From positions 883,199-947,198 of the forward strand of contig CP000875.1 in assembly GCA_000018565.1 (NCBI GenBank): a stretch of 64,000 bases of DNA, given 5' to 3'. The position numbers and the translations under genes are program-made. A model generated the notes under the pieces. The model was not told where the DNA came from. It did no database searches and saw nothing but the letters and a program-made list of their open reading frames with translations. This document shows positions 11,852 to 60,730 of this stretch, in pieces; the stretch's first letter is position 1; each line of letters opens with the position of its first letter. The stretch is from Herpetosiphon aurantiacus DSM 785 (lineage in GTDB: Bacteria; Chloroflexota; Chloroflexia; Chloroflexales; Herpetosiphonaceae).

Positions 11852-11901
11852 GATACCAAGAAAATAACCTAGTACCAAATAGCTGAATGTGAGGTAAATA
11901 G

Positions 11902-12786
11902 ATGCCAACGATTAGCCGTATGCAAGCAACTCAAATTGACCAAGCCGCCGCCTTTATGGCCCAATTTCAACACGATCCCAGCACCCATTTAGGGTTTGCC
12001 GGCCCGCAAGCCGAACAAATTGCCCAAACATGGCGTGAGCTTGAGTTTCCGATTGAGCAGCAATTTGCCTTAGCCTTCGAGGCGGACCAGTTAATCGGCT
12101 TGATTGGCTTGGAACAAATTTCTGATACAGGCCGCGCTTTTTTGTGGGGGCCGATTGCCTTGGGCGAACATCGCTTTGAACTGGCCGATGCCTTACTCGC
12201 TGAATTATTGCCAGAACTCCAAGCGCATGTCACCATGATCGATATTTTTTGCAATTTGCAAAATCAATTTGTGCGTGATTGGGCTGCGCGTCAGCAATTT
12301 TACCAGCGCAATACCCACGCAATTTTAAGTTACAAACGTTCACAATTAACTGAACATGTAACGACTGGTGATGTTGAAATATTGCCCGCCGAATTACATG
12401 CTGCCTTCTGCGAATTGCATGACCAACTTTTTCCTCAAACCTACTACAGTGGGAGCCAAATTCTGGAACGAATCAATCATGATCGCCAGGTGTTTATTAT
12501 ACGTGATGGTGAACAACTACTTGGTTATATTTATACCGAACGTCAACCAGAGTTTGCCGAAGCAGGGATTGAATTTGTCGGTGTTACGCCTGCTGCCCGT
12601 GGCCGAGGTATTGCAATCAAGATTATGCAGCATTGTTTAGCTTGGATTTTCAGTGTAGAAACGATTCAAGAACTAGAATTAGTCGTTGATCAAGATAATC
12701 CTAATGCGCTTAAAGTCTATGAACGCGTTGGCTTCACGTTATTACACGAGATGATTAGCTTACGTCGTGATGTTATAGCCCAATAA
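11902..12786 (+). CDS. GNAT-family N-acetyltransferase (tandem domains)
   Basis: 294 residues. The C-terminal domain (about 150-290) is a clear GNAT: FVGVTPAARGRGIAIKIMQHCL is motif A and QDNPNALKVYERVGF motif B. The N-terminal half (1-140, ISRMQATQIDQAAAFM...) looks like a second, degenerate copy of the same fold. Divergent from holB, with about 50 bases between starts. A hairpin with a T-rich tail ends the transcript. The acceptor substrate cannot be inferred. Confidence 0.8.
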   Translation: MPTISRMQATQIDQAAAFMAQFQHDPSTHLGFAGPQAEQIAQTWRELEFPIEQQFALAFEADQLIGLIGLEQISDTGRAFLWGPIALGEHRFELADALLAELLPELQAHVTMIDIFCNLQNQFVRDWAARQQFYQRNTHAILSYKRSQLTEHVTTGDVEILPAELHAAFCELHDQLFPQTYYSGSQILERINHDRQVFIIRDGEQLLGYIYTERQPEFAEAGIEFVGVTPAARGRGIAIKIMQHCLAWIFSVETIQELELVVDQDNPNALKVYERVGFTLLHEMISLRRDVIAQ

Positions 12787-32513: not shown

Positions 32514-32550
32514 AAATCATGGTTCGTAAAATTCCCTCACCCCCTTACAA

Positions 32551-32640
32551 GGGTAGGTTGTTACCAATCCATTGATCACCACCCTTCCGTCCCGCCTCAA
32601 GGCGGGAAACGCAGGGGGCTTTAATCCCCCTGCACCCCCT
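32551..32640 (+). repeat. Dispersed repeat element, copy A
   Basis: About 90 bases that recur in opposite orientation at 52514-52603. The central 67 bases (32574-32640) differ from copy B at only about four positions. It contains CCGCCTCAAGGCGGG and the inverted pair CAGGGGG...CCCCCTG, giving a two-hairpin structure. Weaker similarity extends another 40-50 bases past 32640. Confidence 0.85.
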
Positions 32641-32708
32641 CAAGGACATTTGGCGGTGAACAGACATCTACCGATGAACCAAAGAATTGGTGGTGCGCAG
32701 TTAAGTTC

Positions 32709-48692: not shown

Positions 48693-49352
48693 TCATTCCT
48701 CAGCCTTCATACTTACCTTCTCGCTTTCAGCCAGCAAATACTCGACGCGGGCGATCACCATATCGATGGCAATCGCATTCAAGCCGCCGCGTGGAATAAT
48801 AATATCGGCATAGCGCTTGGTTGGCTCGACAAATTCAAGGTGCATCGGGCGCACGGTGTTGGTATATTGCTCGATCACCGATTCGATTGAGCGGCCCCGT
48901 TCGGCAATATCACGTTTGAGGCGACGAATAAAGCGCAAATCGGCATCAGCATCAACATAGATTTTTACATCCATACATTGGCGCAACACAGCTTCGGCGA
49001 AAATCAAAATGCCTTCGACCAAAATAACCGGACGCGGCTGTACATGCATCACCTCAGGCCGACGGCTATAGTGCGTAAAATCATAAATTGGCACTTCAAT
49101 CGTTGTGCCATTGCACAAAGCCTCGATATGTTGCGCCAGCAAATTGCTATCGAGCGAGTTAGGGTGATCGAAATTGACTCGCAAGCGTTCTTCAAACGAA
49201 AGCTCAGCAAAATCACGATAATAGGAATCGTGCTGTAAAAATGCAATTCGTGATGGCCCGACGCGACTAAGAATCGCTTGGGAAACGGTAGTTTTGCCTG
49301 ATCCAGTTCCGCCAGCGACCCCAATCACAATTGGTCGTTGCTCTGCGCTCAC
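48693..49352 (-). CDS. udk: Uridine kinase
   Basis: 219 residues. Walker A is IGVAGGTGSGKTTVSQAI; FLQHDSYYRDF and FDHPNSLDSNLLAQHI are the uridine-binding region; YDFTHYSRRPEV and VILVEGILIFAEAVLRQ follow, then VDADADLRFIRRLKRDIAERGRS. ATP/GTP-dependent phosphorylation of uridine and cytidine in pyrimidine salvage. The start is GTG 49352 with GGAGG 9 bases upstream. The longer frame from 49388 overlaps that site. The last residues (SEKVSMKAEE) run into a dispersed repeat. Confidence 0.93.
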   Translation of the reverse strand: MSAEQRPIVIGVAGGTGSGKTTVSQAILSRVGPSRIAFLQHDSYYRDFAELSFEERLRVNFDHPNSLDSNLLAQHIEALCNGTTIEVPIYDFTHYSRRPEVMHVQPRPVILVEGILIFAEAVLRQCMDVKIYVDADADLRFIRRLKRDIAERGRSIESVIEQYTNTVRPMHLEFVEPTKRYADIIIPRGGLNAIAIDMVIARVEYLLAESEKVSMKAEE

Positions 49353-49380
49353 GCCGTTTGTCCTCCATTGTTCGCAAAAG

Positions 49381-49411
49381 GGGAGCAAAGAACAACTAGT
49401 TCTTTGCCCCC
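49381..49411 (-). promoter_or_regulatory. Hairpin in the udk leader (possible attenuator)
   Basis: GCAAAGAAC (49385-49393), 5 bases, GTTCTTTGC (49399-49407), with GGG/CCC flanks extending the stem. On the minus strand the stem is followed by CCCCTTTTGCG and then the udk ribosome binding site. It could be an attenuator, a protein-binding dyad or a terminator of an upstream transcript. Confidence 0.5.
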
Positions 49412-50378: not shown

Positions 50379-50412
50379 TTGACATGGCCTAAACGCTCTA
50401 CTACTGTAGAGC
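50379..50412 (+). promoter_or_regulatory. Promoter with operator-like palindrome
   Basis: Perfect -35 TTGACA (50379-50384), 17-base spacer, weak -10 TACTGT (50402-50407). The perfect dyad GCTCTAC-TACT-GTAGAGC (50395-50412) covers the -10. This fits a repressed or activator-dependent promoter for the caspase-like gene and perhaps the genes after it. Confidence 0.65.
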
Positions 50413-50458
50413 CACGCTGCAATCATCCCAAGAAAATTAGCGCTGAGGAGTTTGCACT

Positions 50459-51355
50459 ATGGGTATTCGTGGCTTATTTGTGGGAATCAATAGTTATAGC
50501 GAGCGGCCACTCAAGGGCTGTGTCAACGATGTAACTGCAGTTCGTGAGTTATTCAGAACCCAACACGCTGCTGCCGATGATCAACTGCGTTTGGTTACCG
50601 ATGCTGCTGCTACGCGCCAAGCGATTATTGATAATTTGGGCTGGCTCGCCGAACCACTTAACGATGGTCAACCCGAAATTCGAATTTTTCACTATGCTGG
50701 CCATGGGGTGCAACACCCTGATCAAAATGGCGATGAACCCGATGGTGCTGATGAATGCCTTGCGCCAATTGATTATCCTAGCGCTGGCTTGCTGAGCGAT
50801 GACCATTTAGCTGAACTGTACCAAGGTTTTTTGGGCACAACGCGGCTCATTTTGTTGATGGATTGCTGTCATTCGGGCACGATCAGCAAAGACCCTTTTT
50901 CCGATATTCGGTATCGCACCTTAACTCCCGCCAAAGTGGTTTACGATGAAATTCGTGCCAAGAAACAGGCCTATCAACAACAACAGGTCGATAACGTAGC
51001 GCAACAAATTCTTGATCTGCAACAACGGAGCGCCGACCCCAGCGAAATTGCCAAGTTTGCAGGCGAGTTGGTCAGTTCGCTGCAAAAACAGAGTTTTGGT
51101 CAACGTCCACAGCACGAAAACACCATTTTGATTTCAGCCTGCAAGGCCGAGCAAGTTGCCGCCGATGCCAATTTTGGCGGAACCTACCATGGTGCCATGA
51201 CCTTCTTTTTGAAAAATATTCTCAGCGAAAATCCTCAAATTAGCTATGCCAACTTGGGCGAACAGCTCCGCCGCAGCCTCTACGACAATAAGTTTCAACA
51301 AATTCCTCAACTTGAGTGCCCAAATAGTCTAATTAACCAGCCCTTCCTACGTTAA
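50459..51355 (+). CDS. Caspase-like (metacaspase, peptidase C14) protein
   Basis: 298 residues. RGLFVGINSYSERPLKGCVNDVTAV is the typical N-terminal block; the catalytic histidine is H82 in FHYAGHG, and the catalytic cysteine C137 in LLMDCCHSGT (D-x-C-H-S-G). Both are present, so it should be an active cysteine peptidase. An insertion of about 60 helical residues (AKVVYDEIRAKKQAYQQQQ...) separates the p20-like part from the final strand and helix (ILISACKAEQVAADANFGG...). No extra domain. GAGGAG precedes the ATG. Bacterial metacaspases of this type usually cut after Arg/Lys; the target is unknown. Confidence 0.9.
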   Translation: MGIRGLFVGINSYSERPLKGCVNDVTAVRELFRTQHAAADDQLRLVTDAAATRQAIIDNLGWLAEPLNDGQPEIRIFHYAGHGVQHPDQNGDEPDGADECLAPIDYPSAGLLSDDHLAELYQGFLGTTRLILLMDCCHSGTISKDPFSDIRYRTLTPAKVVYDEIRAKKQAYQQQQVDNVAQQILDLQQRSADPSEIAKFAGELVSSLQKQSFGQRPQHENTILISACKAEQVAADANFGGTYHGAMTFFLKNILSENPQISYANLGEQLRRSLYDNKFQQIPQLECPNSLINQPFLR

Positions 51356-51363
51356 TTAACTAA

Positions 51364-51390
51364 GCAGCCAATTGCTAGGCGATTGGCTGC
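51364..51390 (+). other. Intercistronic hairpin
   Basis: GCAGCCAAT (51364-51372) and ATTGGCTGC (51382-51390) form a 9-bp stem with a 9-base loop in the 67-base gap between the caspase-like and catalase-fold genes. No U-run follows, so readthrough or mRNA processing is possible. Confidence 0.55.
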
Positions 51391-51422
51391 CCTCATCGAT
51401 CACGCTGCACTGAGGAGCTTGT

Positions 51423-52436
51423 ATGAGTTCAGATCATGCTCACGATTGTCCATGTGCTGATCCTATCACCCAATTACGCCAGCTCTTTGTCAACAAAACT
51501 ATGGGCACGCGGATTAACGCCGGACAAGATCCGGTTCGACGGGCGGTGTTTCTTAAGCCGCACGGTGGGGCCAAAGCCACGTGGTGGGTTCGCCCCCATT
51601 TGCCAGCTGAGCTACGGGTTGGCTTGTTGGCCTACGATCAGCTGGCGGCTTGGCTGCGCTTTTCCAGCGATACCGTGCCGTTTGCCAGCGACCTTGGCAC
51701 AACCTTGGGGGTAGGTATCAAGCTGTTTGGCGTACATGGTCGTAAGTTATTAACTGGTGAAGAAGCTGCATTAACTCACGATTTGGTCTTGCAAAATTAT
51801 CCAGTCTTTTTTGTCGATACCGCCAAGGATATGTGCGAATTTACCTACGAAGGCTTGGTGGGTGATGGCTATGATGCATATCTCGCCAAACACCCCAAAA
51901 CCCGCAAAATTCTCGATCTCATGCAGCAAAATCTGGCTAGTGTCTTCGATGCAGTCTATTGGAGCGGCTTGCCCTATGCATTTGGCCAAGGCCGTTACGT
52001 CAAATATCGCTTAGCGCTTGAAGCACTCAATCCACAGCCACCCGGCAACCCACAGCTCAACCCCAACTTTTTGCACGATGATCTGCGTAGTCGCTTGTTG
52101 GCCGGCCCAATTGATTTGCACTTTAGCATTCAACTGCGCACCAACCCTAAACTGATGCCGTTGGATGCAGCAACCGTCGAATGGTCAAGCGAGCTAGCGC
52201 CGCCGCTGCATGTGGCAACCCTAACTCTGCCCCAACAAGATATTGATGCACCTGGCCAAGCCGCCTACGTCGAAAATCTGGCCTTCAATCCTTGGCACGC
52301 GCTGCCCGAACACGCTCCAGTTGGCAGCATCAGTGAAGCTCGCAAAGTGGTCTATCAAGCTTCGGCGGAGTTGCGTCGCCAACGCAATGGCATTCCGATT
52401 GTGGAGCCACGTCAACCTCGTCACGATTTAACCTAG
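51423..52436 (+). CDS. Catalase-fold heme protein
   Basis: 337 residues. VFLKPHGGAKATWWVRPHLPAELRVGLLA...AWLRFSSDTVPFASD matches the catalase-core strand region (H/K-G-G-x-K-x-x-x-x-V-x-x-x-L-P-x-x-L-R-V-G). Near the C-terminus ARKVVYQASAELRRQRNG has the R-x-x-x-Y arrangement of the proximal heme tyrosine. The family is the catalase/allene-oxide-synthase-like group of small heme proteins; classic catalases are longer (about 480 or more). The distal histidine and asparagine were not firmly identified. Probably deals with hydrogen peroxide or an organic peroxide. It precedes a predicted peroxide-producing oxidase. GAGGAG precedes the ATG. Confidence 0.75.
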   Translation: MSSDHAHDCPCADPITQLRQLFVNKTMGTRINAGQDPVRRAVFLKPHGGAKATWWVRPHLPAELRVGLLAYDQLAAWLRFSSDTVPFASDLGTTLGVGIKLFGVHGRKLLTGEEAALTHDLVLQNYPVFFVDTAKDMCEFTYEGLVGDGYDAYLAKHPKTRKILDLMQQNLASVFDAVYWSGLPYAFGQGRYVKYRLALEALNPQPPGNPQLNPNFLHDDLRSRLLAGPIDLHFSIQLRTNPKLMPLDAATVEWSSELAPPLHVATLTLPQQDIDAPGQAAYVENLAFNPWHALPEHAPVGSISEARKVVYQASAELRRQRNGIPIVEPRQPRHDLT

Positions 52437-52513
52437 CGCATAAGGGGTTTCTGCTGCAAACCATGGAATCCATGGTTTATCGGTGGATGGTTGCCCACCA
52501 TTTCATGAACTTT

Positions 52514-52603
52514 AGGGGGTGCAGGGGGATTAAAGCACCCTGCGTTTCCCGCCTAGAGGCGGGACGGAAGGGTGGTGATCCTTGATGGTTAATAACCGAC
52601 CCC
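52514..52603 (-). repeat. Dispersed repeat element, copy B
   Basis: Reverse complement of copy A (32551-32640), nearly identical over 67 bases (52514-52580). It lies in the 267-base gap between the catalase-fold gene and the lodA-like gene. Weaker similarity to copy A extends left to about 52470. Confidence 0.85.
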
Positions 52604-52703
52604 TGAAAGAAGATTGCTAGGGGTGGGGAAACAATGGTGTTTGTTACTGCAATAAACCAGTACATCTAAATATTAATTAAAAGGTTTACAAGGAGATATG
52701 ATT

Positions 52704-54641
52704 ATGGCTGGTGCTGAGATTGTCAGCGTCGCAATTTATCCTCCGGTTGGCTTTGCCCGCGTCGGAAATAGCCCAAATGAATTTTTTTATGGCCCCGAAG
52801 TGCTGGGTGCGCCCCAAGTTGACCCCGATTTGTTTCGCGATCCTAGTGGCGCGATCAAACGCCAAGCGGCGCGGTTTCGAGTTTATGGCTTGAATGCCGC
52901 TGGTGAGGTGATTTGCGAGTTAAACCAAACCAATCCTGATCTGCAAGAAATTGTCTGGACAGCGCAGCTCGCCAATCAAAAAGCCGCGTGGTATGAATTT
53001 ATCCAAGCGCTGGATATTCCGGCCTCTGCTGATGGCAAAATTGTTAGCAAGCGCCGCAATGCCGATGTAACCGAGCGCGATCAATTGACGATCGATGGTG
53101 GCACACGCAGCATTTGTGGTTTGAATGTTAACCCTCAGGGCCAAGAGGCGATCTATGCCTTTGATCAGGGCACATTCTTTGGTAAGCACGTTTATTTGGG
53201 CGAATTGCGCACCGACGAACAGGGCAATTTGATTGTGCTGGGCGGGCGTGGTCACTCAGCTTCGGCCCATGGCAAGCCCTTAACCACCTTTGCCGATAAC
53301 GATGATTGGCATGATGATACTGCCGATGGCCCGATTGAGGCCGTGGTCAAATTGAGTGATGGACGTGTTTTGCAGGCGACTCATGCGTGGGTGATTGTTG
53401 CGCCGCCTGATTATGCGCCAGGCACAAATTCGATTATGACAGGCTACGATTTGCTGTTTGAAGTGGCGATGCAGCTTGATCCGACGCTTGCGCCAGCTAA
53501 GCCCCGTTTTAGCAGCGAAATTTACCCGTTGCTCTCACGTTTTAGCCAATTGCAATGGGTTAATGCTGGCTTTGCGCGGAGTTTTGGTTGGGGCAGCCCC
53601 AGCGATTTCAATAATCCTGAGTTGATCGCTCGTTTGGGCGATCCTAGTGCTGCGAGCGAACCATTGCGCCAAGCGGTTTTGGCTCAAATGCGCAATCCCA
53701 GCAATCCCTATATCGATCCCGAAGGCTTGCCATTGTTTTATGGCGATGCGATTACGCTCAACACCAAAACCACCGATCCCCAAGAGTGGCAAGCAATTTT
53801 GCCCAGCCAATATCGTTGGCTAGAGCAATGGGCCAATGGCGATTTTATTGCCGATGGTTTGCCCGTGGTCAGGCCGTGGGCGCAGCTTGATCCTGCTGAA
53901 CAGGCCTACAACCTAACGCGGGCGGCGCTTGATGCAACCTTGGGCGGGCCGTTTCACCCGGGCTGCGAATTCACTTGGCCGCTACGCCATACCTCGATGT
54001 ATGCAGCACCATTTCGGCTCAAACGTCGTACTAGCCCTGAGCCAGATTGGGGCGATACGCTCGATGCGGCTACCGCCTTAGCACCCGATGGGATGTTGTA
54101 TGCCAGCGATGCGGGCGCGATCACCCGTTGGATGGCCGTGCCTTGGCAAACCGATACCTCAAGCTGTCTCTCGGCCTATATGGGCTATGCCGGAACCTAT
54201 CTGCCAACTTTTTGGCCCGCTCGTGTGCCCAACGATGTGCTTAGCCAAGAGAGCTACCAGATTATTATGAACCCTGATGCTACGCCTGAAGAGCGTGCCC
54301 AAGCCTTCGCGCCGACGGCCCGCCGCAAGTGGCTGCGCGGCATGGTCTACACCGAGAGCATTCCACCAGGCCACATTCCAACCGTGCCAGCAATTACTAA
54401 ATTTACCAACGAATGGGATACCGTGGGCATTATCATCGCCCAAACTGGGCCTGAACATAGCGCTAGCTTCCCGCAAACGCTTTGGGTTGAAACAGGCCGA
54501 CACGTTGAATCCGAGGCTCCCCAATTAACCCGTAGCCTAGCCGCCGAGCCAGAAACTGATCTAGTTGATAGCGACCTCAATTGGCCGCAACAACGCCTCA
54601 AGCGAGGACGCAAAAATGCCGCCGAAGCCAATAACGATTGA
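52704..54641 (+). CDS. LodA/GoxA-like CTQ-dependent amino-acid oxidase
   Basis: 645 residues. The N-terminus IVSVAIYPPVGFARVGNSPNEFFYGPE is the LodA start motif. GPFHPGCEFTWPLR corresponds to the G-x-F-x-P-G-x-E-x-x-W block. VPWQTDTSSC contains the cysteine (C488) four residues after an aspartate, as in LodA (D512/C516), and FWPARVPNDVL contains the probable tryptophan partner (W504) for the cysteine tryptophylquinone. LodA oxidises lysine and GoxA glycine, both with release of ammonia and hydrogen peroxide. The substrate here is not determinable. ATG 52704 fits AAGGAG (8 bases); ATG 52698 is too close. Its end overlaps the lodB-like start by 26 bases. Confidence 0.85.
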   Translation: MAGAEIVSVAIYPPVGFARVGNSPNEFFYGPEVLGAPQVDPDLFRDPSGAIKRQAARFRVYGLNAAGEVICELNQTNPDLQEIVWTAQLANQKAAWYEFIQALDIPASADGKIVSKRRNADVTERDQLTIDGGTRSICGLNVNPQGQEAIYAFDQGTFFGKHVYLGELRTDEQGNLIVLGGRGHSASAHGKPLTTFADNDDWHDDTADGPIEAVVKLSDGRVLQATHAWVIVAPPDYAPGTNSIMTGYDLLFEVAMQLDPTLAPAKPRFSSEIYPLLSRFSQLQWVNAGFARSFGWGSPSDFNNPELIARLGDPSAASEPLRQAVLAQMRNPSNPYIDPEGLPLFYGDAITLNTKTTDPQEWQAILPSQYRWLEQWANGDFIADGLPVVRPWAQLDPAEQAYNLTRAALDATLGGPFHPGCEFTWPLRHTSMYAAPFRLKRRTSPEPDWGDTLDAATALAPDGMLYASDAGAITRWMAVPWQTDTSSCLSAYMGYAGTYLPTFWPARVPNDVLSQESYQIIMNPDATPEERAQAFAPTARRKWLRGMVYTESIPPGHIPTVPAITKFTNEWDTVGIIIAQTGPEHSASFPQTLWVETGRHVESEAPQLTRSLAAEPETDLVDSDLNWPQQRLKRGRKNAAEANND

Positions 54642-55686
54642 TTGTTTGATCGTTGGCGGCGGAATTGCTGGCTGCGCCTGTGCCGTGCATCTCGCACGGC
54701 ATGGGTGGCAGGTGCTTGTGCTCGAACGCCCGCCTGTGCGGCCACAGCGCTTTGGCGAAAGTTTAGCGCCTGCCGCTCGTCCGTTGGTGCACGAGCTTGG
54801 GCTCGATCTTGATCGGGAGCATTCGATTTGCCCGGGCAATCTAGCAGCTTGGGGATCAGATGCGATCTATCATCATGATTTTTTGGCAACGCCCTATGGT
54901 CATGGCTGGCATCTCAATCGACCTCACTTTGAGCAGCAGCTCCGCCAGCGCTGCCTTGAATTGGGCGTAACGTTCAGTTCAGTGTCAATCGGCTACCTCG
55001 AACGCCAGCCTGAGCGCTGGATTATTGGCGTTGGAGAGCAATTATTTCAAACGCGCTGGCTGATTGAATCCACTGGCCGAGCACGTTGGCTAGCACGGCG
55101 ATTGGGCGCACAAACCCAGATTGATGGACCCAAACAGCTTGGTTTGGTGGCGATGCTGGAGCCACAAGCCCAACCATGGCCTGATCAGCGGAGTTTGGTT
55201 GAGGCGGTGGCTGATGGTTGGTGGTATGTGGCGCGAGTGCCGCAATCCCAAATGGCAACAATTTTTATTGGTCAACCAACCGCTGCCCAACGCCAAAAGC
55301 TTGCTCTGGCCGAGGGTTGGTGGCAAGCGCTCAAGCGTAGCACCTGGGCCAAACAATGGCTCGATCAACATCAGCTTTGTGCCCAACCGTATTGGGTCGA
55401 TGCCAGCAGCAGCCGTTTGGATCGCTGCTATGGCAATGGTTGGTTGGCGATCGGTGACGCGGCCATGAGCTATGATCCGCTGGCGGCGCATGGGATTACG
55501 GTTGGATTAACTAGCGCTCGCGATGCCGCCCAATCTTTAATCGCTGCCAACCAAGGCTCAGTGGCTGCGCTGCATGGCTATGGCCACCAGCTAGAGCAGG
55601 CTTGGCAAGCCTATCGCCAACTGCGCCAGCAGATCTATGCCCAAGAACAGCGCTGGCCCAATCGCCCATTTTGGCAACCACGCTAG
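54616..55686 (+). CDS. LodB-like FAD-dependent oxidoreductase
   Basis: 356 residues. N-terminal IDCLIVGGGIAGCACAVHLARHGWQVLVLER is the FAD-binding Rossmann loop, and FGESLAPAARPLVHELGL is typical of the tryptophan-halogenase/geranylgeranyl-reductase-like flavoproteins that include LodB. GWLAIGDAAMSYDPLAAHGIT is the second FAD motif (G-D-A). LodB proteins are needed to form the CTQ cofactor in LodA/GoxA. The ATG at 54616 has AGGAC upstream and lies within the 3' end of the lodA-like gene, indicating translational coupling. Confidence 0.85.
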   Translation: MPPKPITIDCLIVGGGIAGCACAVHLARHGWQVLVLERPPVRPQRFGESLAPAARPLVHELGLDLDREHSICPGNLAAWGSDAIYHHDFLATPYGHGWHLNRPHFEQQLRQRCLELGVTFSSVSIGYLERQPERWIIGVGEQLFQTRWLIESTGRARWLARRLGAQTQIDGPKQLGLVAMLEPQAQPWPDQRSLVEAVADGWWYVARVPQSQMATIFIGQPTAAQRQKLALAEGWWQALKRSTWAKQWLDQHQLCAQPYWVDASSSRLDRCYGNGWLAIGDAAMSYDPLAAHGITVGLTSARDAAQSLIAANQGSVAALHGYGHQLEQAWQAYRQLRQQIYAQEQRWPNRPFWQPR

Positions 55687-55709
55687 CAAAAAACCTGAAT
55701 TATGCTAAG

Positions 55710-55739
55710 ATGCAGCAATCAAATTTTTGGCTGCTGCAT
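55710..55739 (+). other. Hairpin after the lodB-like gene
   Basis: ATGCAGCA (55710-55717) and TGCTGCAT (55732-55739) form an 8-bp stem with a T-rich 14-base loop. It lies at the start of the 202-base gap before the first flavoprotein paralog; terminator or processing signal. The rest of the gap shows no repeat. Confidence 0.4.
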
Positions 55740-55888
55740 GGAGTCAAAAGCACCCACACACTCTACCCATCAATTGCTCCATCAACCACAGCAGCATGCT
55801 TCAATCTGCTACGTTTGCTAGAGAATCAAACGTTAGTAGCCACAATTGTTGTGTGAGTTGAATTCCATTTGGTATGGAAGGAGCTACG

Positions 55889-57262
55889 ATGGGCCACGAT
55901 CATGCGCTGGTTATCGGCGCAAGCATTAGCGGTTTAGCAACCGCGCAGATCCTCAGCCACTATTTTGCTCAAGTAACGATTATCGAACGTGATAGTTTGC
56001 CCGACTCGATTGAGGTTCGATCTGGTTTGCCGCAAGCTCGCCACCTACATCTGTTGTTGATGCGCGGAGCGCGTGAGCTTGAAACGCTCTTTCCTGGCAT
56101 TGGGCAGGAACTCGTGGCTCACGGCGCACAGTCGGTCGATTTGATGAATGATTATCGCTATTTGATGGCTGGTGGCTGGGCCAAACCGCATCAATCAACC
56201 CATCGCACAATTTCGGCTAGCCGCCCGCTCTACGATTGGGTGCTGTTACAGCGCTTGCGCCAAAACCCCAAGATTCGGATCGAAACCCAAACTGATGTGC
56301 TTGGCTTGGTTGGGGATTTGCGCCATGTGCGGGGCATCAACACCAAGCGCCGTGATACTGGGGTTGAGCAACAATTTTTAGCTGAACTCTTGGTTGATTG
56401 CAGCGGGCGTTCATCCAAGCTTGATCAATGGCTGCAAGCGCTGGGTTGCCAAGCAGTGCCCGAAACTGTGATTGCCTCGAATGTAGGCTATTGCTCGCGG
56501 CTCTATGCCAAGCCCGAAGGCTGGAATGAATGGAAGGGCTTATTTGTGCGCCAGCGACCGTTGGTTAATCCACGCGGCGCGATTTTAACTGAGATCGAGG
56601 GTAATCGCTGGATGGTGACCTGTGGTGGATTCAACGAGGCCAAGCCACCACTTGATGAGAGCGAATGGCTGAATTGGCTCAACCAATTGCGCTCGCCAAT
56701 TTTGTATGAATTATTGAGTAAGGCTCAGCCAATTAGCCCATTGGTGGGCTTTGGCCGCACCGAGAATCGCCAACGCCACTATGAGCGAATTAGCTTGCCT
56801 GCGGGAGTAGTGGCATTGGGTGATGCCGTTTGTGCCTTTAATCCAATTTATGGGCAAGGCATTAGCAATGCCACCTTGGGCGCGATCTTGCTGAGCCAGC
56901 ATTTAAAAGAACAAGATCGGGCTTCAGCAGCGTGGGGTCAGCGCTTCCAACAAGCACTCGCTAAAAGCAATCAATTCCCTTGGAGCATTGCGGTGGGCGA
57001 AGATGCCCGCTATAACACCAGCGTTAAGCGTTCGTTTGGCGCAACCCTGCTACGCAACTACTTCGACCAAATTAACCTAGCATCAAGCAGTAATCCAGTT
57101 GTGCTCAACCGCTTCACGCCGATTGTGCATATGACTGGTAATCCCAGTGGTTTACTGCACCCAGCGATGATCTGGAATGTTATCAAAGGTCGCTTGCGAT
57201 CAGCAACTCCCAACCCAACGCCCTCGATCCCTAGCATTCTCAGCGCTAGCCAAGGAGCTTAA
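55889..57262 (+). CDS. FAD-dependent oxidoreductase, tandem copy 1
   Basis: 457 residues. HALVIGASISGLATAQILSHYFAQVTIIERD is the FAD Rossmann loop (G-x-S-x-x-G). The D-G motif equivalent is VDCSGRSSKLDQWL, and LPAGVVALGDAVCAFNPIYGQGIS is the G-D-A/P motif of the PHBH/squalene-epoxidase-like flavin monooxygenases. RARHLHLLLMRGARELETLFPG distinguishes this subfamily. No membrane helix. ATG 55889 has AAGGAG upstream; the frame from 55874 starts before that site. Very similar to the next gene; substrate unknown. Confidence 0.85.
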   Translation: MGHDHALVIGASISGLATAQILSHYFAQVTIIERDSLPDSIEVRSGLPQARHLHLLLMRGARELETLFPGIGQELVAHGAQSVDLMNDYRYLMAGGWAKPHQSTHRTISASRPLYDWVLLQRLRQNPKIRIETQTDVLGLVGDLRHVRGINTKRRDTGVEQQFLAELLVDCSGRSSKLDQWLQALGCQAVPETVIASNVGYCSRLYAKPEGWNEWKGLFVRQRPLVNPRGAILTEIEGNRWMVTCGGFNEAKPPLDESEWLNWLNQLRSPILYELLSKAQPISPLVGFGRTENRQRHYERISLPAGVVALGDAVCAFNPIYGQGISNATLGAILLSQHLKEQDRASAAWGQRFQQALAKSNQFPWSIAVGEDARYNTSVKRSFGATLLRNYFDQINLASSSNPVVLNRFTPIVHMTGNPSGLLHPAMIWNVIKGRLRSATPNPTPSIPSILSASQGA

Positions 57263-57264
57263 CC

Positions 57265-58626
57265 ATGCTGCAAGATCATGCAATTGTGATTGGAGCCAGT
57301 ATTAGTGGCCTGATTACCGCCCACATGCTGAGCCACCATTATGGCCGAGTTAGTGTGCTTGAACGCGATAGCTTGCCCGAGGCTGGCGATTTTCGGGCGG
57401 GTGTGCCGCAAGGTCGCCATGTGCATTTGCTGCTCATTCGCGGTGCACGCGAGCTGGAAACGCTCTTTCCAGGCATCAACCAAGAACTGCAAGATCTTGG
57501 GGCGCAAGCCGTCGATATGATCAACGATTGTCGCTATTACCTCAAAAATGGCTGGACAGTGCCTCAGCCAACCGATTTGAAAACGCTCTCGGCAACTCGC
57601 CCTTTATTTGATTGGGCAATTCGGCGGCGCTTATTGCAAAACCCCAAGATTCAGTTTTTAGCCCAACACGATGCCCTGAATCTGATTGGCAATAGCCGTC
57701 ATATTCAAGGGGTGCAGGTGCGCAATCGCCAAGATGGTAGCGAACAGAGCTTGCATGCTGATCTGGTTGTCGATACCAGCGGGCGTAATTCCAAATTGGC
57801 GGAATGGTTGGTCGAGCTTGGTTGTGGCAAGGTAAGCGAAACCGTGCTTGATGCCAAACTTGGCTATACGTCGCGGCTCTATGCCAAACCCGAAGGTTGG
57901 AACGAATGGAAAGGCCTGTTTGTGATGCAACAGCCACCGACCATTCCCAAAGGTGCGATTTTGCTCGAAGTTGAGGGCAATCGCTGGATTGTGACTGGCG
58001 GCGGGGTCAATCATGCCAAACCACCAACCGATGAAGACGGTTTTATGCAATGGCTGCGCGAATTGCCATCGCCAATTTTGGCCGATTTATTGAGTAAATC
58101 GCAGCCGCTTAGCCCAACCAGTGGCTATGGGCGTACCGAAAATCGCCAACGCCACTACGATCGTATGCAACTGCCAGCCGGAGTAATTGCCTTAGGCGAT
58201 GCCGTTTGTGCCTTTAATCCGGTGTATGGGCAAGGTATTAGCACCGCCACCTTGGGGGCAATCTTGCTTGGTACCCATTTAAAAGAGCAAGATCGTGGCT
58301 CGGCAGCATGGGGCCAGCGTTTCCAACAAGCCTTAGCCAAGAACAATCAATTTCCTTGGGAAATGGCGAGCGGCGAGGATTCGCGTTACGATTCATCGTT
58401 CAAACGCCCATTTTTCAGCAAGCTGATTGCACCCTATTTTGATCAAATTAATCAGGCCAGCTTGAATAGCAACGTGGTGTTTAGCGAGTTTATCAAAACA
58501 ATTCATATGATCGGCAATCCGAATGCATTGTTTCATCCACGGGTATTTATTCCCGTGCTGCTGAGCAAAATTCGGCCTAAATATTCCGATGCAGTGCCAA
58601 ACTTGCCCTTGCAGGTCAACGTATAG
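57265..58626 (+). CDS. FAD-dependent oxidoreductase, tandem copy 2
   Basis: 453 residues, closest to copy 1 (shared ALFP-region HLLLIRGARELETLFPGINQEL, YTSRLYAKPEGWNEWKGLFV, and GDAVCAFNPVYGQGIS). Begins 2 bases after the stop of copy 1, with AAGGAG in the end of that gene, so they are one transcript. The N-terminal FAD loop is AIVIGASISGLITAHMLSHHY. It is likely a flavin monooxygenase or a ring-oxidising enzyme acting with copy 1 on a common product; this is inference. Confidence 0.85.
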   Translation: MLQDHAIVIGASISGLITAHMLSHHYGRVSVLERDSLPEAGDFRAGVPQGRHVHLLLIRGARELETLFPGINQELQDLGAQAVDMINDCRYYLKNGWTVPQPTDLKTLSATRPLFDWAIRRRLLQNPKIQFLAQHDALNLIGNSRHIQGVQVRNRQDGSEQSLHADLVVDTSGRNSKLAEWLVELGCGKVSETVLDAKLGYTSRLYAKPEGWNEWKGLFVMQQPPTIPKGAILLEVEGNRWIVTGGGVNHAKPPTDEDGFMQWLRELPSPILADLLSKSQPLSPTSGYGRTENRQRHYDRMQLPAGVIALGDAVCAFNPVYGQGISTATLGAILLGTHLKEQDRGSAAWGQRFQQALAKNNQFPWEMASGEDSRYDSSFKRPFFSKLIAPYFDQINQASLNSNVVFSEFIKTIHMIGNPNALFHPRVFIPVLLSKIRPKYSDAVPNLPLQVNV

Positions 58627-58700
58627 CATAGGCAACTGAATCAAGCCCTGCTATACTACTAGAATAGGCAGGAGTACATTTCAGATTTGGGAGGTGTGCT

Positions 58701-60059
58701 ATGAGACGAGACCATGCGATTGTGATCGGGTCCAGCATCGGTGGATTATTGAGCGCCCGTGTGTTGAGCGAGGTGTATACCAAAGTGACGATTTTGGAGC
58801 GCGATACACTGCCCGATGGGGTGCAATTTCGCGCGGGCGTGCCGCAAGGTCGTCAATTACACTTACTACTGATGCGCGGCTTACTCGAATTAGAAAAACT
58901 GTTCCCCAAATTGCGCGAAGATATGAAGGCGCTTGGCGGCAACGAGCTGGATCTGATGAACGATTGTCGCTATTTATTTGCAGCGGGTTGGGCCGAACCA
59001 CGACCCTCGGATTATCGCAGCATCATCGCCACCCGCCCCTTGTTCGATGCAGCGATTCTTGGGCGGATTCGCCAAATTCCCAATATTGAAATTCAAACGC
59101 GCCAAGAAGTGACGGATTTGCTCTTTCACGGGCGGCAAGTTGTCGGGGTCAAGCTGCGCAATCGTGATACTGGTGAGCAGCATGAACTCAACGCCAACTT
59201 GGTTGTCGATGCAGCAGGCCGTCCATCCAAGCTGCCCGAATGGCTGGAACAGCATCAATTTGGGCGCGTCAAAGAGACCATTTACAAATCGGATGTGGGC
59301 TATGCCACCAGAATGTACACTGCGCCAGCCGATTGGCAAGGCTGGCCAGCGATCTTTGTGATGCCGATGCCGCCGCATATTCGCCATGGCGCGACCTTCC
59401 TTAAAGTTGAAAACGATCAATGGCTCTTGACAATTGGCGGAGTTGGCAGCCAACGCCCACCAACCGATAGCGCCGAGTTTGAAGCTTGGTTGGCACGGAT
59501 GCGCACACCATTGATTGCTGAAATTACCCAAAAATTTACGCCTGCCAGCCAAGTGTATGGTTATGCCAAAACCGAAAATCGTTGGGTTCATTACGAACGA
59601 CTACCAGTAATGCCCGCTGGCCTGATTGCCATTGCCGACAGCGTGTGTGCCTTGAATCCAATTTATGGCCAAGGCATTACCAATACTGCCATGAGCGTTC
59701 AGGTTTTAGCCAAGCATCTGCAACGCGAGGGCATTGGCAGCGCCCCCTGGGCCTTGATCTTCCAAAAAGCCTTGGCTCGCCGCAACAAATCGGGCTGGCT
59801 CACCACCATAAGCGAGGATTCACGGCTGGCTGATACGCCGACCTATCGCCCAATTTTGCCAATTCGCGTGCTGCAATGGTATAGCGATAAAGTGAATTTA
59901 GCAGCGGCAGGCAATCGCGCTGCTACCAACGCGATGGTTGGCGCGATTCATATGATCGGCTCAGCTGCGAGCTTATTTACGCCCAACGTATTGATTGCCG
60001 CCTCGCGCTTTTTCCGTTCGCAACCACCAAGTAGCGTGCCAGCAGCGCCCGATAAATAA
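58701..60059 (+). CDS. FAD-dependent oxidoreductase, tandem copy 3
   Basis: 452 residues, more diverged from copies 1 and 2 but with the same order of motifs: AIVIGSSIGGLLSARVLSEVY, RQLHLLLMRGLLELEKLFPKL, VDAAGRPSKLPEWL and IADSVCALNPIYGQGIT (D-S in place of D-A). GGGAGGTG precedes the ATG. A TATACT lies about 50 bases upstream in the 74-base gap, so it may have its own promoter in addition to readthrough. Confidence 0.83.
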   Translation: MRRDHAIVIGSSIGGLLSARVLSEVYTKVTILERDTLPDGVQFRAGVPQGRQLHLLLMRGLLELEKLFPKLREDMKALGGNELDLMNDCRYLFAAGWAEPRPSDYRSIIATRPLFDAAILGRIRQIPNIEIQTRQEVTDLLFHGRQVVGVKLRNRDTGEQHELNANLVVDAAGRPSKLPEWLEQHQFGRVKETIYKSDVGYATRMYTAPADWQGWPAIFVMPMPPHIRHGATFLKVENDQWLLTIGGVGSQRPPTDSAEFEAWLARMRTPLIAEITQKFTPASQVYGYAKTENRWVHYERLPVMPAGLIAIADSVCALNPIYGQGITNTAMSVQVLAKHLQREGIGSAPWALIFQKALARRNKSGWLTTISEDSRLADTPTYRPILPIRVLQWYSDKVNLAAAGNRAATNAMVGAIHMIGSAASLFTPNVLIAASRFFRSQPPSSVPAAPDK

Positions 60060-60169
60060 CCAACTATGCGCCTTGATCACGGTTGATTGAGGCGTAGCAT
60101 AGCTTCTGTGGCCTGATTCTTGCCTTAACCTAGGCATAGAATAGTGGTGTAACAGGAGGTATGCAACGG

Positions 60170-60730
60170 ATGAGTCAGCATTTAAATGGTAAACGGGTAG
60201 CGATTATTGCAACTGATGGCTTTGAGCAGAGCGAGCTTGAAGAACCCAAAGCGGCCTTAGAGCAAGCCGGAGCCAAAACCCATGTCATTTCGCTCAAGGC
60301 TGGCACGATTCGCGGCTGGAAAGAGCAAGATTGGGGCAGCGAGGTTGCTGTCGATTACACGCTTGAACAAGTCAACCCTGCTGATTATGATGGGTTGTTG
60401 TTGCCTGGTGGCGTGATGAACCCCGATAAACTGCGGCGCGAAACCAGCGTTTTGAATTTTGTACGAGCCATGGCTGAAGCTGGCAAGCCAATTGCCGCCA
60501 TTTGCCATGGCCCATGGACGCTGATCGATGCTGGAATCGCCAAAGGCCGCATGCTCACATCGTACCCAACCTTGCAAAACGACCTGAAAAATGCTGGAGC
60601 CGAGTGGGTTGATCGCGAAGTCGTGGTCGATAATGGCCTGGTGACTAGCCGCAATCCCCAAGATATTCCGGCCTTCAATCGCAAATTTATTGAAGAATTA
60701 GGCGAAGGTTTACATAAACAAGTTGGCTAA
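60170..60730 (+). CDS. PfpI/DJ-1-family protein (type 1 glutamine amidotransferase-like)
   Basis: 186 residues. KRVAIIATDGFEQSELEEPKAALEQAGA contains the glutamate of the catalytic site, DGLLLPGGVMNPDKLR is a typical loop, and the nucleophile is the cysteine in AAICHGPW (C-H). This is the YhbO/PfpI group, reported to have deglycase or stress-protection activity; classical peptidase activity is uncertain. ATG 60170 lies 9 bases from GGAGGT; ATG 60161 is too close. Possibly the end of the oxidoreductase transcript but separated by 110 bases. Confidence 0.9.
   Translation: MSQHLNGKRVAIIATDGFEQSELEEPKAALEQAGAKTHVISLKAGTIRGWKEQDWGSEVAVDYTLEQVNPADYDGLLLPGGVMNPDKLRRETSVLNFVRAMAEAGKPIAAICHGPWTLIDAGIAKGRMLTSYPTLQNDLKNAGAEWVDREVVVDNGLVTSRNPQDIPAFNRKFIEELGEGLHKQVG

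Follow-up and report, generated by a model that had tools for sequence, protein, structure and literature searches.

A probable self-contained catalase-fold and LodA/GoxA-like oxidase cassette between unrelated neighbours in Herpetosiphon aurantiacus

Group III of the LodA-like proteins includes enzymes that carry an N-terminal catalase domain (pfam00199/cd08152), and all the fusions of this kind listed in a survey of the family fall in that group (Campillo-Brocal et al. 2015, PMC4417212). No characterised member of group III was reported in the same survey (PMC4417212). Here, we analyse a 64,000-nucleotide stretch (the window) of Herpetosiphon aurantiacus DSM 785, whose 6.79-Mb genome comprises three contigs, including a chromosome of 6,346,587 bases. 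Seven plus-strand open reading frames (ORFs) lie in a row at 50459-60059 and encode a caspase-like peptidase, a catalase-fold protein, a LodA/GoxA-like oxidase, its LodB/GoxB-like maturase and three flavoproteins; all are present as listed in a preliminary description of this DNA, and the families assigned there hold. We put at about 80% the probability that positions 51423-55686 constitute a self-contained, dispensable three-gene oxidase cassette lying between two unrelated resident neighbours. The caspase and the flavoproteins, which resemble alkene monooxygenases, are very probably bystanders to the oxidase, adjoining it by position only.

The comparison of the window genome (G000) with five further Herpetosiphon genomes (G001-G005) delineates the cassette. 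G001 and G003 retain the whole row with protein identities of about 93-98%. In G002, G004 and G005, the genes udk, caspase (83-85% identical), monooxygenases and pfpI occur in the same order, with the caspase gene ~200 bp from the flavoprotein genes, and none of the three cassette genes is present; no homologue of the oxidase (goxA) or of the catalase was found anywhere in these three genomes. The framing genes are the uridine kinase gene udk (48693-49388, minus strand) on the caspase side and the DJ-1/PfpI gene pfpI (60161-60730) on the monooxygenase side. Upon alignment of filled and empty sites, homology stops near the caspase stop codon and restarts directly after that of the maturase gene (goxB), and neither a target duplication nor a transposase was seen at these junctions. 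The G+C content of the cassette, inspected for a compositional sign of recent transfer, is 0.53-0.57, slightly above that of the window (0.505). The trios of genomes with and without the cassette also separate by sequence identity, so that one gain or one loss suffices to account for the pattern.

Oxidase loci across bacteria point in the same direction. A bacteria-wide scan with an alignment of the oxidase yielded 80 goxA-like loci, each no longer than about 22 kb, in which genes were called using profiles iterated on those loci. The maturase gene adjoins the oxidase gene in 79 of 83 loci (the 80 and three from relatives), and in 23 of the 80 the oxidase itself carries the catalase domain, joined in frame at its N-terminus. 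Profile, phmmer and motif searches all failed to detect a caspase-like ORF in the 80 loci, some flanks being short enough for a distant caspase to be missed. The monooxygenase trio is likewise not evident in these loci, the flavin monooxygenase profile matches adjoining the oxidases being the maturases themselves. In turn, neither caspase nor oxidase genes occur in nine monooxygenase neighbourhoods from other Chloroflexota or in one more from the window genome. The caspase, the oxidase unit and the monooxygenases thus occur independently. The co-occurrence comparison proposed in the preliminary description therefore goes, within the genus, against its view of the seven genes as one system: half of the six genomes hold the caspase and flavoprotein genes but lack the oxidase block, and no caspase was detected in the 80 oxidase loci. 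Its grouping of the catalase-fold, LodA-like and LodB-like proteins is upheld by the 23 natural fusions and by the catalase tree described below.

The first cassette gene (51423..52436, plus strand) encodes a free-standing catalase-fold heme protein of the y4iL/mini-catalase type, an assignment based on predicted fold, clade and heme residues, as the gene alone has no Pfam or NCBIfam match. Its AlphaFold (AF2) model has a predicted local distance difference test (pLDDT) score of 90.5, and a Foldseek search with this model returned 3e4y as the best match (3.1e-17). The matches comprise true catalases as well as the closest solved relatives, a catalase-related protein of 33 kDa and an allene oxide synthase with a catalase fold. 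Across 34 aligned relatives, the distal His47 is kept in 32 sequences, and the proximal Arg307 and Tyr311 in all 34. The window protein combines a predicted catalase fold with a distal histidine and a proximal RxxxY motif. In the tree, it groups with the 23 oxidase-fused catalase domains (clade support 97/97), and it is 44-60% identical to these domains versus ~30% to free-standing Chloroflexota catalases, in a comparison set that is not neutral, since the fused domains were collected via the oxidase and closer free-standing relatives may exist. Judged by sequence, this identity and shared clade indicate that the window catalase gene is the two-gene form of the known catalase-oxidase fusion. 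The two proteins are encoded by separate ORFs in all three cassette-bearing genomes, with no in-frame catalase domain ahead of LodA_N. None of the 80 loci contains another separate-gene catalase-oxidase pair; two of them (L152 and L113) hold additional, more distant catalase-like genes. In the oxidase tree, the Herpetosiphon enzyme belongs to a clade whose members are mostly unfused, with one fused exception from Brevibacillus, so that a fused gene may have split or the unfused state may be ancestral.

The second gene, goxA (52698..54641, plus strand), encodes a LodA/GoxA-like amine oxidase of the cysteine tryptophylquinone (CTQ) type. Both of its domains score well above the Pfam cut-offs (LodA_N, 1.4e-76 and 257.6 bits against 26.3; LodA_C, 2.2e-36 and 125.3 bits against 25). 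In an alignment to the GoxA structure in the PDB, Cys490 and Trp506 coincide with the cofactor residues, and these two positions, together with Asp486 and His420, are all kept and invariant. GoxA is the best NCBIfam model (NF038173, 435.8 bits), under its equivalog cut-off of 750, and the LodA model (NF038172) gives 202.6 bits, under its cut-off of 600. As the enzyme falls far under the thresholds for both glycine and lysine oxidases, glycine is not supported as its substrate.

The third gene, goxB (54616..55686, plus strand), overlaps goxA by 26 nt and encodes a flavoprotein maturase of the GoxB/LodB/QhpG type, a family associated with tryptophan hydroxylation for CTQ. Its NCBIfam matches (GoxB, 2.8e-70; LodB, 7.5e-58; QhpG, 1.6e-46) all lie under the equivalog cut-offs, the best model, GoxB, scoring 237.1 against 400. 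The best PDB match is 7ctq, a peptidyl tryptophan dihydroxylase. Since these are its nearest families, and since QhpG hydroxylates peptidyl tryptophan (PMC7876137), it is for the maturase alone, among the flavoproteins of the row, that action on amino-acid side chains can be argued. In a genome of the same taxonomic order (G016, locus L009, 8189-9316), the maturase gene beside the oxidase gene is read in two frames, reflecting a frameshift or an assembly error.

The core genes had been described as having overlapping starts, which is correct for the LodB-like gene, starting inside the LodA-like gene; the catalase and LodA-like genes are 261 bp apart. This gap results from the insertion of a multicopy repeat (52440..52680) that occupies this site in the window strain only. 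The repeat forms strong hairpins and has at least 40 genomic copies that are 76-88% identical, one of which lies elsewhere in the window (about 32544-32681, minus strand). In G001 and G003 the repeat is absent and the catalase-oxidase gap is about 35-40 bp. Its copy number and its absence from the sister strains led us to reject this spacer as a regulatory leader. Upstream, a strong hairpin with a 12-bp stem and no T-run (51364..51390) separates the caspase stop from the catalase start; it is identical in G001 and broken by a repeat in G003. This second high-copy repeat (G003, locus L008, about 11870-12020) is present in at least 40 copies in both G003 and G000. No Rfam family matched anywhere across the row at gathering thresholds, whether riboswitch or other known RNA.

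On the caspase side, the resident neighbour is an orthocaspase/metacaspase-like peptidase (50459..51355, plus strand; Peptidase_C14, 1.9e-26), whose matches in the PDB include metacaspases, among them metacaspase-1 (4.3e-26). It resembles orthocaspases and bacterial metacaspases by its p20 caspase domain and its His82-Cys137 dyad, invariant in the six genomes, and differs in being single-domain, without a link to the oxidase. Its promoter (50379..50412, plus strand) consists of TTGACA at 50379, a 17-nt spacer and TACTGT, and both the -35 and -10 elements are conserved in the six genomes. The palindrome noticed earlier over this -10 (GCTCTAC-TACT-GTAGAGC, 50395-50412) is real. Unlike the -35 and -10 elements, it is not conserved between species, and we rejected it as an operator for this reason.

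On the other side lie three flavin monooxygenases of the MonCI/Lsd18 type, all on the plus strand. Copy 1 (55889..57262) is 60% identical to copy 2 and absent in G002 and G004; copy 2 (57265..58626) and copy 3 (58701..60059; 42-45% identical to copies 1 and 2) occur in all six genomes. Copy 2 matches LasC/Lsd18 (1.1e-68) and MonCI (6.4e-68) in the PDB using phmmer, over 370 residues. The window enzymes share the motifs RxGVPQxRHxH and AFNPVYG with these polyether epoxidases, whereas the polyether-specific letters LWS and GHGMS (PMC10560226) are replaced by LLI/LLM and GQGIS; RAGVPQGRHVHLLLIRGA and AFNPVYGQGISTATLGA differ at these two places. As the polyether signatures are only partly present, the three flavoproteins are best called MonCI-type alkene monooxygenases. 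This homology makes it unlikely that they act on peptide side chains, as had been suggested. The tandem triplication (55889-60059) is kept in the genus, and a fourth, distant copy is found at G000:C1:1748576-1749871.

A promoter-like region (55700..55739, plus strand) precedes the monooxygenase genes and, when aligned, proves conserved in the six genomes whether they carry the cassette or not. In the window it lies before copy 1 and includes an inverted repeat, ATGCAGCA-N14-TGCTGCAT (55710-55739), behind a -10-like TATGCT; the inverted repeat is likewise conserved in all six genomes and could serve as an operator or as a transcript-end hairpin. Conservation also extends to a TATACT site ahead of copy 3. 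A general scan of promoters gave no excess over shuffled sequences; the sites reported here are consensus matches that draw their weight from conservation.

We propose that the three cassette genes would be expressed jointly and support a short reaction sequence. The LodB/GoxB-like flavoprotein would build the CTQ cofactor in the LodA/GoxA-like enzyme, which would then oxidise a primary, amino-acid-like amine and release hydrogen peroxide (H2O2), and the catalase-fold heme protein may use up this H2O2 where it is formed, whether by dismutation, as a protection, or in a peroxidase or peroxygenase reaction. The latter version, in which H2O2 serves as co-substrate for oxidation of the amine product or of another molecule, is a tentative sub-case of the cassette reading: the nearest solved structures are the catalase-related protein and the allene oxide synthase, and the oxidase fusions in 23 loci fit H2O2 channelling, but the conserved distal histidine and proximal Arg/Tyr motif are also expected of a plain catalase. 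More specifically, the separate oxidase and catalase-fold subunits might come together as a complex that channels H2O2, with the heme protein using the peroxide for a second, peroxygenase-type oxidation instead of destroying it, the fused forms being the same machine in one chain; we regard this as doubtful. Several points weigh against the cassette reading itself. Gain of the cassette in one clade and its loss in the other would both fit the genus data, the 80 loci, as the top matches from a single scan, do not form a random sample, and the short flanks of some of them could conceal a caspase. The 240-bp structured repeat may weaken the coupling of the catalase and oxidase genes, and catalase-fold homologues with other activities (allene oxide synthase, chanoclavine synthase) make consumption of H2O2 less than certain.

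The caspase and monooxygenases could also be given a role. The row might encode an integrated peroxide weapon or cell-death system in which the caspase governs peroxide release or immunity and the flavoproteins are accessory. The seven genes are indeed co-directional, their row is kept in three genomes and the caspase dyad is intact in six; yet the genomes that keep the row are ~97% alike, so that a common gene order says little, three others have the caspase and monooxygenases but no oxidase block, no caspase was detected in the 80 oxidase loci, and the sites before the monooxygenases are conserved irrespective of the cassette. Taken together, these observations render such a system highly improbable. 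That the caspase and monooxygenases form an older functional pair, later split by the oxidase cassette, would agree with their adjacency in the six genomes of the genus. This adjacency is, however, explained by common descent, as the flanking udk and pfpI are kept too; moreover, no caspase lies within about 9 kb of the monooxygenase homologues from other Chloroflexota, and a conserved promoter-like region stands between the two, which makes the pair unlikely.

In summary, a tempting but unsupported caspase-peroxide system is removed, and a clean, testable oxidase unit remains that can be set beside three described systems. It shares LodA_N, LodA_C and an adjoining maturase with the lysine-epsilon-oxidase LodA/LodB, from which the low LodA score makes a different substrate group likely. 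The glycine oxidase GoxA/GoxB of Marinomonas and Pseudoalteromonas provides the best NCBIfam models and the aligned CTQ cysteine and tryptophan, with the window proteins scoring under both cut-offs. The group III catalase-LodA fusions (PMC4417212) join these two domains in identical order and are likewise followed by a LodB-like gene, and their catalase domains are those related to the window protein; Herpetosiphon differs in having separate genes and an oxidase that sits in a mostly catalase-free clade. The unit is thereby a two-gene version of the uncharacterised catalase-oxidase fusion that many bacteria carry, and its heme partner and oxidase can be made and assayed apart, which opens a route to the role of the catalase domain in group III.

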